In this document: piece by piece, positions 5,481 through 10,242 of the stretch
Position numbering within the stretch: position 1 is the first letter of the stretch
Layout of the letters: each line of letters starts with the position of its first letter
Assembly: GCF_000212395.1 (NCBI RefSeq)
Contig: NC_015499.1
Coordinates: 1,189,421-1,253,420 of the forward strand
Source of the DNA: Thermodesulfobium narugense DSM 14796
GTDB taxonomy: Bacteria > Thermodesulfobiota > Thermodesulfobiia > Thermodesulfobiales > Thermodesulfobiaceae
DNA length: 64,000 bases
Reading direction: 5' to 3'
Translations under genes and position numbers: made by a program
Notes under the pieces: generated by a model
What the model was told of the DNA's origin: nothing
Seen by the model: the letters and a program-made list of their open reading frames with translations, nothing else
Database searches by the model: none

Positions 5481-6143
5481 GTGATTTCAAAACAATTTGA
5501 AAAAAATATCATGACACTTGGAGAAGAAGATCAAACAAAACTCTTTCAATCTACAGTCTCTATTATTGGAATGGGCGGTCTTGGGGGCTTTGTACTCGAA
5601 CACCTTGTTAGATTAGGAGTAGGTCATATAAAAATTGTAGACAAAGACGTTTTTGAGGAATCAAACTTAAATAGACAAATTCTTTCGGATATGAATTCCC
5701 TTGGCAGACAAAAGGTAGAGATAGCAAAAATCAGAGCAAAAAACATTAACAAAGAAGTAATAATAGATTCTTTTGATACTGAATTCACAGAAAAAAATGC
5801 AATAGAAATATTAAAGGGATCAAACGTCGCAGTAGACGCACTCGACAACAACAATTCTAGATTACTTTTGTTTAAAATAGCCAAAAGCCTTGGCATACCG
5901 GTGGTACACGCAGCAGTTTCAATGACCTCTGGAGAGGTAAGGGTTTTCTTCCCTGAGGACGAGATAATTGACTTTAAGAAAAATAAGGGGACAGAAGAAT
6001 ATAAAGGAACAATTTCACCTACTGTAGCAGTAGCTGCATCAATTCAAGCTATGGAAGTAGTAAAAATTTTGACAAATAAAGGCAGCATGCTAAAAAATGG
6101 TTTGTACTTTGATTTGAAGGATAATTTTTATTCTGTAATTTAG
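5481..6143 (+). CDS. ThiF/MoeB/HesA-family adenylating enzyme
   Basis: E1-like enzyme (220 aa). It has the nucleotide-binding glycine loop GMGGLGG at residues 30-36, the arginine-containing ATP motif SNLNRQILSD, and DALDNNNSRLLL, all typical of the family that adenylates the C-terminus of ubiquitin-like sulfur carriers (MoaD, ThiS). The catalytic-cysteine loop and the CxxC zinc pairs of true MoeB/ThiF are absent and the chain ends right after the core, so it belongs to the short HesA-like group and its partner cannot be named. GTG start at 5481 with AAGGAG 6 nt upstream. No MoaD/ThiS gene is adjacent. Confidence 0.83.
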   Translation: MISKQFEKNIMTLGEEDQTKLFQSTVSIIGMGGLGGFVLEHLVRLGVGHIKIVDKDVFEESNLNRQILSDMNSLGRQKVEIAKIRAKNINKEVIIDSFDTEFTEKNAIEILKGSNVAVDALDNNNSRLLLFKIAKSLGIPVVHAAVSMTSGEVRVFFPEDEIIDFKKNKGTEEYKGTISPTVAVAASIQAMEVVKILTNKGSMLKNGLYFDLKDNFYSVI

Positions 6144-6266: not shown

Positions 6267-7445
6267 TTGAAATTTCTCTATTTTTTATTGGTCCTTTTAC
6301 TTGTAATGACTATTCGATCAAGCGCTTATGCTATAGACGAGCTTTCAAGTCTTTCAGAAAATAGCAATACCTTTGCCTTTAATATTTTTAAAGAATTAAA
6401 TTCTGATAAAAATATAGTCTTCTCGCCTTTCAGTATATATACAGCTCTTTCTATAGCATCTTTGGGAGCAGGCGGAACAACTAAGGATGAATTTGACAAA
6501 GTTCTAAACAACAATTTGTCTCTTGAACAGTTCCATCAGTCTTATAAAGATATAATAAAAAGCGCCTCGATTGGATCAAATAAGTTTAATATTGCAAATG
6601 CTCTATGGCTTGACAATGGTTTCCAACCAGAGGAAGATTTTTTGAACAGTGCCACCACCTTATTTGATTCCCACGTTGAAAGCTTAGACTTCAAAAACAA
6701 TCCAAAAAATAGCTCAGACACAATAAACTCATGGATAGAACAAAACACAAACGGCCTTATAAAAAATTTGTTAAGTCCAAGTAGTATAAGCAGTAATACT
6801 CGCATGATTATAACCAACGCAATATATTTTAAGGGCAATTGGGAAAGGGCATTTGATCCCAAAGAAGATTCAGAACTAAATTTCTATGTTGAACCAGATA
6901 AACCAGTAAAAACAACTTTTATGCAGCAAAACGGAGCCTTTTTTTACTGCGAAAATCAATCAGTAAAGTTGTTGCAGTTAAACTATGAAGGAAATAGTCT
7001 TTCATTAATAATAATTTTGCCAGAAAAAGACATAGACAACTTCATAAAAAATTTAAGTGATGAAGAGTTTAGATCATTATTGAGAAGTATGAAACCTGAG
7101 GAGTTAAATATAAAAATTCCCAAATTTAAATTCATTTTTTCATCAGATCTAACTAAGCAACTAATCGATTTAGGAATAAAGTCAGCTTTTACCACAAGTG
7201 CTGATTTCTCTGGTATAAGTAAGTCTCAGAATCTCTACATTTCTGACGTTATCCACAAAGCATACATAGATGTGAACGAGACTGGCACAGAAGCTGCTGC
7301 ATCTACATCTGTGGGATTTACTACAACAGCCTTTAATCCTTTTCCAGTAAAAAATTTTATAGCAGACCGTCCTTTTGTTTTCGCGATAATGGATAACAAA
7401 ACAAAAACGTTGTTATTTTTAGGAAAGATATTAAATCCGCAATAA
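6267..7445 (+). CDS. Secreted serpin (serine protease inhibitor family I4)
   Basis: A full-length serpin (392 aa) with a signal peptide (FLYFLLVLLLVMTIRSSAYA). Family motifs in order: NIVFSPFSIYTALS, the long helical core with TNAIYFKGNWERAFD, LSLIIILPE, IPKFKF, and the reactive-centre region with the inhibitory hinge ETGTEAAASTS followed by ADRPFVFAIMD. Small Ala/Ser/Thr residues at P12-P8 mean the loop can insert into the beta-sheet, so it should be an inhibitor and not a dead homologue. P1 by counting from the hinge is a threonine in FTTTAF, but the loop is about two residues longer than in alpha-1-antitrypsin, so the scissile bond is uncertain. TTG start at 6267 behind AAGGGGTGG. A second secreted gene follows 16 nt later. 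Confidence 0.95.
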   Translation: MKFLYFLLVLLLVMTIRSSAYAIDELSSLSENSNTFAFNIFKELNSDKNIVFSPFSIYTALSIASLGAGGTTKDEFDKVLNNNLSLEQFHQSYKDIIKSASIGSNKFNIANALWLDNGFQPEEDFLNSATTLFDSHVESLDFKNNPKNSSDTINSWIEQNTNGLIKNLLSPSSISSNTRMIITNAIYFKGNWERAFDPKEDSELNFYVEPDKPVKTTFMQQNGAFFYCENQSVKLLQLNYEGNSLSLIIILPEKDIDNFIKNLSDEEFRSLLRSMKPEELNIKIPKFKFIFSSDLTKQLIDLGIKSAFTTSADFSGISKSQNLYISDVIHKAYIDVNETGTEAAASTSVGFTTTAFNPFPVKNFIADRPFVFAIMDNKTKTLLFLGKILNPQ

Positions 7446-7461
7446 ATTGGGAGGTTACTTT

Positions 7462-8568
7462 ATGAAATTATTAAAATTTTTCCCTGTTTTTAGTATTTTT
7501 TTGATTTTTCTATTCTCAGTGTCTTTTGCATCAGTATCATATGCAAGTATTGAGTGCGGACAAAATGACATTAATTGTGTTTTGACCTCTATTGATAAAT
7601 CTGATTACGTGAAATTTACCAAATCTGAAACTGAGTACGGACTAAATATAGAGGAAAGCAAGTTTACTATAGAAGCCAATAATTCAGGAGATAATATTAC
7701 ACCGTGGTTCCTAGGGCATCAAATCCCAGAAGAAGCCAAATATTATGTAAAGGGCACTTTAACCTTATTTAGGGGTTTTAAAGAAACGCCGGAAAACTCA
7801 ATATTTAAAACTCTCGTCGAACAGTATCCAGATTTAAGGAATAAAGATTTATCATCTCTTGTAGGAGAAAGTTTCGAATGCATATTTAAAACTAAAGATG
7901 AATTAAAAGATTTCCTTACAAATGGCCTCAATGAGAAATACGTTAGCGATGGCAAATTAATCTCAGATCTTGAAAAAATAGAAAACATAAAATCCGAAAA
8001 TTGGAGACCAATTGAACACACAGTAGTAAAAAAACCTGCAATATATCTTTATCCTACCGCAGATAGCACAATTACTGTGTCAATAGACCCGAACGGCACG
8101 ATTACAAAAACAATTCCTGACTATAAGGGGAAGTGGACTGTAAACGTTACAAAGAATGGCAAAATAGATAAAAAATATGACTATCTCTTTTACGAAGCTA
8201 CTCTAAATGATAGCTTCACGCCAAGCGAAGGTTGGATTGTAAGCTATAACGATCTTAGTTTGTTTTTCGACAAATTTCTGCCAATCTTAGGTTTAAATAA
8301 GAAAGAGGCTGCTCAATTTAAAGAATATTGGCTAAAGAATCTAAAAAGAGCTAACTACTATCTAATAAGCCCGGTATCAAAAGAATTTATTGAAAACAAC
8401 CTAAAGTTAGAAGTAACTCCTAATCCAGATACTGTAATAAGAGTAATTTTATACTTCAGTCCTCTTGACAATCCCATCAACATACAGACGCCTGTTTTAG
8501 AGAAACCAACAAGAAATGGTTTTACAGTTGTAGAATGGGGAGGCATTCTGGGAGACAAAGTAAAATAA
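7462..8568 (+). CDS. Secreted protein of unknown function with a C-terminal KPAIYLYP domain
   Basis: A 368-aa protein with a clear signal peptide ending near ASVSYAS. The N-terminal half (residues ~30-185) is unrecognised and contains three cysteines. From about residue 195 it carries a domain beginning KKPAIYLYPT and ending FTVVEWGGILG; I recall this 'KPxIYLYP ... VEWGG' arrangement from other secreted bacterial proteins but know no function. The start is the ATG at 7462, where GGGAGG lies 7 nt upstream; an ORF start at 7447 would overlap that site. It follows the serpin by 16 nt and is probably in its operon, so a link with protease control outside the cell is an inference only. Confidence 0.8.
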   Translation: MKLLKFFPVFSIFLIFLFSVSFASVSYASIECGQNDINCVLTSIDKSDYVKFTKSETEYGLNIEESKFTIEANNSGDNITPWFLGHQIPEEAKYYVKGTLTLFRGFKETPENSIFKTLVEQYPDLRNKDLSSLVGESFECIFKTKDELKDFLTNGLNEKYVSDGKLISDLEKIENIKSENWRPIEHTVVKKPAIYLYPTADSTITVSIDPNGTITKTIPDYKGKWTVNVTKNGKIDKKYDYLFYEATLNDSFTPSEGWIVSYNDLSLFFDKFLPILGLNKKEAAQFKEYWLKNLKRANYYLISPVSKEFIENNLKLEVTPNPDTVIRVILYFSPLDNPINIQTPVLEKPTRNGFTVVEWGGILGDKVK

Positions 8569-8586: not shown

Positions 8587-8619
8587 ATGGGCGCAATTTC
8601 TTGCGCCCATATCTTTTTA
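8587..8619. terminator. Bidirectional rho-independent terminator between the serpin operon and the porin gene
   Basis: Perfect 10-bp inverted repeat ATGGGCGCAA / TTGCGCCCAT (8587-8596 and 8601-8610) with a 4-nt loop, followed on the plus strand by ATCTTTTT and on the minus strand by an AT-rich tail. It lies between convergent stops, so it can serve both transcripts. Confidence 0.85.
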
Positions 8620-10242
8620 GAAGCTTACATCCATCTGAATATAATATCTTTGATCGGTATCAAGCTGCATCGGGTTAAAAGTATAATATACTTGGTTTGC
8701 TACATCTGTAGCATAAGGCTTCTTGCCCTTCCAATATTCATAGTTAAACTTCAAAGTAGTATTCTTTGCTATAGGCAATATATACCATACCTGATAGAAA
8801 TCCTTCCAGGAGGTATCAGAGCTAGAGTAGAAAAATGCTACAGGGTTATACCACTTGTTGTTTCCGAAATAAAAATCTCCCCACAGATAACCCACAGGAA
8901 GCTTGTATAGCGCTCCAATTCTCCAAGCCCCGCCATTTACAGAATTCATTCCATAATAAGTGTAGTTGGATGAAGGACCGTTAATGCCAGCAGGCATATC
9001 TACGCTTGTGCCCTGATATCCAGCCCAGAAATTAACTCCGTAAAAGTTGAAATCAGATTGAATTGTCCACCAGTTATATTTTCCATATTGAGGATTAGAA
9101 GCCGAAGTAGACGTTACATTATTAGAAAAGTAAGTAAATTTAGGCATTGTGCCATAATCTGCTTCTAAGCCTATAGCATTAAAAATCTTAGACTTAAAGC
9201 TCGCAATATAAGCATCTCTGTCCTTTAAACCGTATGTTTCATTCTCTGCAGTAATCAAGCCATCATCAAAAAACTTAACCCAGGCAAGTGAAAGATTCGA
9301 CTGTGGCAAGAAGTTATTTAGGTCAAACCTTACGATTGCCCCTTCAGTCTCTGAATCAAGAAAGAATTTATTGAAGTATTGACTATCAACCATAGTAGGC
9401 AGTCTACCAAGCAAAAAGGTTACTGGATATGGATTTAGATTCCAGGTTATAAACGATCTCTCTACAAATAGTCTATTGTCATTATCATTGTATCCAGAAG
9501 TAATAGCTCCAGTATTTGGATTTCCAAATGGACTTGATAGATCACCTGTCCCATTTTTACCTGCGTTTTTCTCCATTGAAAGTCTAGCAGTATAAGATAT
9601 GTTGTCTGCAACTGGCGCATTAACGTTTAATCTTATATAGTAGCGCATAAAAGTATCTTCTTTATCTAATGGCTTTACAGTTTGAGCGCCATTTGGATAT
9701 AGACCGTTGACAACAGGCAAAACGTAAGATCCGTTAATTGTAGTACCAGGTAGATTTTGAGTTGTATACCCCAAAGAAACTACTTTGTATGGCTCATCAA
9801 GTGCATAGAAAGTTTGCTTTCGATAGGCAAGCCTAAACCTTGCATCCCCAGTAAAGTTCACAGTATCAAGAGCTGCTTTTTTCTCAAGCGCTGCAACTCT
9901 GACGTTTAGCGATGCTAGTTCTGACTTAAACTCATCAGCTAGTTTCATAAGAGTTGCTATGTCGTTAGCGTTTAGCTCTATCTTTTGATCCTGTGCATTT
10001 TGACCCTTTTCATACATATCGAGCATTCTTGCAACTACCATTGCCATCTCATAACGGGTGGCAAGTCTTTCACCTCTGAAAGTGCCATCTCCATAGCCTA
10101 TAACCAGTCCTTTTGCCGCTAAGTCTTGCACTGCCTTGTATGCCCAAGAATTAGCCGGTACATCCGAGAATGGTCCTGCAAATGCAGATGAAGTTAACAA
10201 AAAAACGAATAATAAAGCAAAAAATAATGAAAATTTCCTCAA
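8617..10242 (-). CDS. SLH-domain outer-membrane porin (OmpM-like)
   Basis: A 541-aa protein in three parts: a signal peptide ending at SSAFA; one SLH domain (about residues 22-75, GPFSDVPANSWAYKAVQDLA to ATRYEMAMVVARM); a short coiled coil (~80-115); then about 420 residues of alternating aromatic/polar strands (TARLSMEK, FLLGRLPTM, KFNYEYWKGKK) ending in YYIQMDVSF. A terminal Phe is the usual BAM recognition residue of beta-barrels. This is the OmpM layout of diderms whose outer membrane is tethered to peptidoglycan polymers by SLH. Start is TTG at 10240-10242 with GGAGG upstream (no usable ATG). A good promoter lies at 10355-10382, suiting an abundant envelope protein. Confidence 0.92.
   Translation of the reverse strand: MRKFSLFFALLFVFLLTSSAFAGPFSDVPANSWAYKAVQDLAAKGLVIGYGDGTFRGERLATRYEMAMVVARMLDMYEKGQNAQDQKIELNANDIATLMKLADEFKSELASLNVRVAALEKKAALDTVNFTGDARFRLAYRKQTFYALDEPYKVVSLGYTTQNLPGTTINGSYVLPVVNGLYPNGAQTVKPLDKEDTFMRYYIRLNVNAPVADNISYTARLSMEKNAGKNGTGDLSSPFGNPNTGAITSGYNDNDNRLFVERSFITWNLNPYPVTFLLGRLPTMVDSQYFNKFFLDSETEGAIVRFDLNNFLPQSNLSLAWVKFFDDGLITAENETYGLKDRDAYIASFKSKIFNAIGLEADYGTMPKFTYFSNNVTSTSASNPQYGKYNWWTIQSDFNFYGVNFWAGYQGTSVDMPAGINGPSSNYTYYGMNSVNGGAWRIGALYKLPVGYLWGDFYFGNNKWYNPVAFFYSSSDTSWKDFYQVWYILPIAKNTTLKFNYEYWKGKKPYATDVANQVYYTFNPMQLDTDQRYYIQMDVSF

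Follow-up and report, generated by a model that had tools for sequence, protein, structure and literature searches.

A secreted serpin and its ND-YLYP partner in Thermodesulfobium narugense: a possible extracytoplasmic anti-protease operon

Layout of the locus

The window analysed here is a stretch of 64,000 nucleotides (1189421-1253420) of the 1.90-Mb single-contig genome of the heat-loving bacterium Thermodesulfobium narugense DSM 14796, in which a serpin gene, a gene for a secreted two-domain protein (ND-YLYP) and a terminator-like stem follow one another on the plus strand. The serpin gene (6267..7445, plus strand, 392 amino acids) begins with a TTG codon at 6267, preceded by the ribosome site AAGGGGTGG, and ends with a stop codon at 7443-7445; its upstream neighbour, also on the plus strand, is a ThiF-family gene (5481-6143). 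The ND-YLYP gene (7462..8568, plus strand, 368 amino acids) starts at ATG 7462 behind the ribosome site GGGAGG, which lies in the 16-nt gap between the two genes (7446..7461, plus strand), and both genes are found where an initial annotation of this DNA had placed them, at the distance that it gave. Downstream lies a terminator-like stem-loop with a T run (8587..8617, plus strand), whose stem (8587-8610) speaks for the operon ending here; there are 2 such sites in the stretch scanned, with an average of 1.3 in shuffles. A promoter search at the locus gave nothing rising above chance. The order of serpin and then ND-YLYP is kept in 4/4 genomes of the genus examined, and so is the terminator stem, the other three genomes (G001-G003) showing a similarly short gap with AAAGGAGG ahead of the second gene. 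As part of an overall reading in which we place moderate confidence as a whole, both genes would form a single transcription unit that exports the serpin and ND-YLYP. Beside the operon ends a gene running in the opposite direction (8617-10242, minus strand), which codes for an SLH and DUF3373 porin-like outer-membrane protein and would be a sign that the host has an outer membrane.

An ordinary exported serpin

Judged from its sequence, the Thermodesulfobium protein is a full-length member of the serpin superfamily: the match to PF00079 extends over 360 residues and profile positions 2-370 of 370, with 376 bits vs a cut-off of 27 (E 3e-112), and the closest solved structure is conserpin (E 1.3e-71). 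Its N-terminus of about 22 residues (6267..6332, plus strand) is hydrophobic and signal-peptide-like, with a cleavage site placed by eye between SSAYA and IDE, and the hinge ETGTEAAASTS occupies residues 338-348, in agreement with the earlier description of a signal peptide and an inhibition-competent hinge. From the hinge, a count of 17 residues leads to Thr354 as P1 and Ala355 as P1'; the stretch from E338 (P17) to T354 (7278..7328, plus strand) was located by alignment with conserpin and with the four genus homologues, and its assignment rests on what we take to be the usual count, in alpha-1-antitrypsin numbering. Positions P15-P9 (GTEAAAS), with small residues and a Thr at P14, fit an inhibitory serpin and are of the same type in 4/4 genus genomes, while P1 is Thr in 4/4 genus serpins, with TTA[FY]NP kept around it. 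From what is known of the family and from this hinge, we regard the window serpin as a suicide inhibitor of the usual kind, presumably acting outside the cytoplasm.

The initial annotation had also read the Thr at P1 as pointing to an elastase- or subtilisin-like target. The residue itself stands by counting, but Thr-Ser at P1-P1' ends the loops of many other bacterial serpins compared, so that a Thr in this position is ordinary and picks out no target. A profile search found no subtilisin (PF00082) in the serpin's own genome, which rules out an endogenous subtilisin as the target; one HtrA-type protease (PF13365) is encoded there. Miropin is described as making use of several loop bonds and as an inhibitor of subtilisin, elastase and trypsin (PMC8201313), and for this reason P1 obtained by counting cannot fix the target. 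The serpin half of the operon is ordinary, a fresh member of a familiar family.

Every one of the four genus genomes has a second serpin. In the genome of the window it lies directly downstream of a gene for a MORN-repeat-like protein (locus L002, 1471-2688; C1:1349872-1350951) and carries the degenerate hinge DEYGLNKTIF, from which it is probably non-inhibitory. At another locus (L047 5062-7444, in G057), a full serpin stands beside serpin fragments interrupted by stop codons, which look like the decayed remains of a tandem copy.

The YLYP family and its ties to protease inhibitors

The partner protein was expected to be secreted, and its N-terminus (7462..7545, plus strand) is indeed hydrophobic and signal-peptide-like, with the cleavage site placed by eye between VSYA and SIEC. 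It is followed by the ND domain (7546..8022, plus strand), modelled with a pLDDT mostly >80, and by the YLYP domain (KPAIYLYP ... VEWGG; 8029..8556, plus strand), which takes up some 180 C-terminal residues and agrees with the family pattern KPxIYLYP ... GFTVxEWGG, with invariant Y, P, P, W and E. ND-YLYP has no family match in Pfam, NCBIfam, PHROG or PADLOC; neither PF00014 (Kunitz/BPTI) nor PF16743 (PliI lysozyme inhibitor) matches the protein, and its own genome is also without Kunitz domains. The AlphaFold2 model of YLYP alone reaches a pLDDT of 96.4 and a pTM of 0.90, and a PDB search with it gave no clear match (Foldseek best E 0.6), the best superposition being on the C-terminal domain of AP2 mu2, of mu-homology fold (Z 3.2, rmsd 3.9, 107 residues aligned). 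The search with the two-domain model likewise returned nothing clear (Foldseek best E 0.23, Z 3.4). As modelled, YLYP thus appears to be without a clear match in the PDB, which does not by itself demonstrate a new fold.

Scanning a single genome for each species yielded at least 518 confirmed YLYP stretches, spanning bacteria and small-genome archaea, and the best 80 of them were taken for analysis; within a broad set of 386 genomes, the domain is present in 15. It stands at the C-terminus in 85/86 reading frames examined, with a hydrophobic stretch upstream in 81/86, and among the domains that precede it are carboxypeptidase-regulatory, SdrD_B, LRR, Big, SH3, ankyrin and Kunitz domains. Its combinations with LRR, Big, SH3, ankyrin or carboxypeptidase-regulatory domains come without any inhibitor, and in small archaeal genomes it is found alone behind a membrane anchor: YLYP is a widespread C-terminal surface domain, usually with no inhibitor beside it. 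This C-terminal position in many unrelated surface proteins makes us favour a role in binding or anchoring over that of an enzyme. The strongly conserved polar residues E58, E95, R140, R164 and E171 (numbering of A4) could make an active site, and the serpin would then shield a surface enzyme from proteolysis; neither fold nor family searches matched YLYP to an enzyme, its N-terminal partners are mostly binding or structural domains, and we consider this very improbable.

Relatives of ND are fused to YLYP in L050, L051, L059, L063 and L068, the profile comparison giving E 7e-10 if the L062 gene is counted in and 2e-6 if it is not. In Sulfuricurvum (L062), ND is a separate gene, 33 nt behind a Kunitz-YLYP gene (E 1e-12), and the end of L066 holds a cut and weaker ND start (E 4e-4). 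Three YLYP domains, with apparent ankyrin-type stretches between them, occur in one spirochaete protein (L107 7290-10664), and an Oscillospiraceae genome has three tandem YLYP genes whose products have lipoprotein-like N-termini (L110 7578-9949). No neighbour family shared by YLYP genes was found among 93 neighbours compared, from a listed 105 (the omitted 12 being YLYP genes or pieces, a short frame with an overlap, and long genes). The idea of a phage or of a defence system was rejected as well, PADLOC giving no match and PHROG none that convinces. The domain occurs in one plasmid record and in one phage record, the latter an unannotated phage genome from human stool (MT835506.1, 4416-4961, 36% identity).

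Among the best 80 of the at least 518 loci, together with the genus genomes, there are four lineages in which YLYP is linked with protease inhibitors. In a KSB1 bacterium (G004, locus L081), a serpin gene is followed by a CarboxypepD_reg-YLYP gene, with a 4-nt overlap if the listed start is used; the N-terminus of this partner is CarboxypepD_reg and not ND, which counts against the preferred reading given below. Three Campylobacterota genomes, two of them Sulfuricurvum, have Kunitz-YLYP fusions (L062, L066, L074; PF00014 above cut-off, E ~1e-13), and in Thermodesulfobacterium thermophilum (L053) a secreted ankyrin-Kunitz gene lies 25 nt upstream of a YLYP gene. With a Kunitz P1 that looks like Lys (GPCK, by eye) and a serpin P1 of Thr, the two inhibitors are unlikely to share a single protease.

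The main rival to a joint function is that the serpin is an ordinary exported inhibitor and YLYP a general C-terminal surface domain, serpins and Kunitz domains being near it on account of their shared surface location. This explanation, which we consider possible but doubtful, agrees with the sheer number of YLYP stretches, the variety of their N-terminal partners and the lack of a common neighbour, and also with the distribution of serpins, which are no commoner in genomes with YLYP (13/73) than in the 386-genome set (90/386, p 0.36). Against it stand the recurrence of the serpin pair in two unrelated lineages and the position of the Kunitz domains. PF00014 was found in 4/73 YLYP genomes vs a background of 2/386 (Fisher one-sided p 0.007), and all four domains are fused or adjacent to YLYP, despite a size-based estimate of about two thousand genes per genome. 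This search covered the genomes of 73 of the best 80 (of at least 518) YLYP loci, the seven outside being L048 (G001), L081 (G004), L119 (same assembly as L099), L111, L114, L122 and L125; Kunitz domains (PF00014) are absent from G001 and G004. One PF00014 run had no signal in its own controls, and the same family matched in other runs; a Kunitz profile built from the four matches serves as confirmation only, PF00014 being the independent test.

The serpin-YLYP pair itself is far from general. The initial annotation held bacterial serpins to be uncommon; they are not especially rare in our sample, centred on the genome of the window, where 90 of the 386 genomes have one over the PF00079 cut-off. 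Serpin and YLYP are both over cut-off in 8/386 genomes and adjacent in 5, four of which belong to the genus of the window. Conservation of the pair in relatives, on which the annotation proposed to judge the coupling, is seen in the genus (4/4 genomes) and in the unrelated KSB1 bacterium; it is missing from most genomes outside the genus that carry both genes, and within the examined flanks a serpin accompanies only 2/80 YLYP loci (best 80 of at least 518), the pair being absent at 78/80. With so few loci and no enrichment at the genome level, a general serpin-YLYP pairing is rejected; by this neighbourhood test, the coupling of serpin and ND-YLYP is real but rare.

The origin of the coupling can be addressed with trees. 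INDEPENDENCE: the window clade and the KSB1 serpin are set apart in a tree of 28 serpins, the former lying in a 13-row set with 100/99 support and the latter outside it (the wrongly cut loop of L013 was not used and L007, a cut copy of the KSB1 serpin, was dropped). In a tree of 88 YLYP domains, which left out L041, L043, L044 and L045 as duplicates, near-duplicates or truncated domains, the domains of the window and of the KSB1 bacterium are also separate. Here the seven inhibitor-linked rows need five label changes, at least 2 of them forced by well-supported branches; support is weak for many branches, and there is some clustering of the seven rows (6/500 shuffles as low). As the two serpins are not sisters and their YLYP domains lie apart, the link between inhibitor and YLYP probably arose more than once.

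The repeated company of inhibitor domains could also mean that YLYP or ND has an inhibitory or protease-binding activity of its own and that the operon encodes two inhibitors for different enzymes. The YLYP protein of L049 has, in its N-terminal part, a weak match to PF16743, the sole one among YLYP N-termini, which points the same way at 19.9 bits, below the cut-off of 27. YLYP matches no inhibitor family, though, and in small archaeal genomes it also stands by itself after a membrane anchor, and we think this explanation unlikely.

Model and comparison with known systems

Our preferred reading, whose chances we regard as evenly balanced, is that the operon counters proteases outside the cytoplasm, with ND-YLYP as a partner that positions the serpin or assists it. 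There, the serpin would offer the Thr354-Ala355 bond as bait, an elastase-like or HtrA-like serine protease would cleave it, and the loop would then insert and trap the protease covalently. ND-YLYP, to judge from its recurrence, may serve at the surface or envelope as a module by which the inhibitor is held, positioned or helped, and if so, one and the same module could have been combined with different inhibitors in different lineages. The control of a protease outside the cytoplasm, already suggested for the pair in the initial annotation, is favoured by the C-terminal domain YLYP being tied to Kunitz domains in two further lineages. A more far-reaching version, in which a modular prokaryotic anti-protease system at the cell surface has ND and YLYP as its constant components, with serpin and Kunitz interchangeable and YLYP binding the inhibitor or the protected surface as a cofactor, seems to us rather unlikely as a whole.

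In the open-licence literature searched, nothing relevant was found on the serpin and partner pair, on the YLYP domain or on Kunitz domains in these bacteria, and an unnamed domain that recurs with two classes of inhibitor appears to be new to it. The roles of prokaryotic serpins are described as relatively enigmatic (PMC8233489), and a co-encoded partner, whose domain recurs beside a second, unrelated class of inhibitors, gives a concrete handle on them. Were ND-YLYP to bind, anchor or accelerate the inhibitor, this would be the first clue to a domain that is unnamed in the searched libraries and spread over bacteria and small-genome archaea. That YLYP is joined to, or next to, inhibitors in a few unrelated microbes hints, at the level of sequence, at a reusable module for protease defence.

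Compared with the inhibitory prokaryotic serpins (PF00079), such as miropin, tengpin, thermopin and Pnserpin, the window serpin is alike in its full-length fold, by sequence, and in its signal peptide, and its hinge is of the ExGTEAAA type reported for them (PMC8233489). Its Thr at P1 is common to several of the bacterial serpins compared. It differs from the known prokaryotic serpins in its operon with an ND-YLYP partner, none being described for them in the open-licence literature searched. Bacterial Kunitz/BPTI-domain proteins (PF00014) are also tied to YLYP, by fusion or adjacency, but they are inhibitors of another, unrelated fold, with a likely P1 Lys (by eye) and no loop insertion. BspA-like and internalin-like LRR surface proteins, in turn, carry a C-terminal YLYP domain as the window partner does, and differ from it in their LRR N-terminal part and in having no attached inhibitor.
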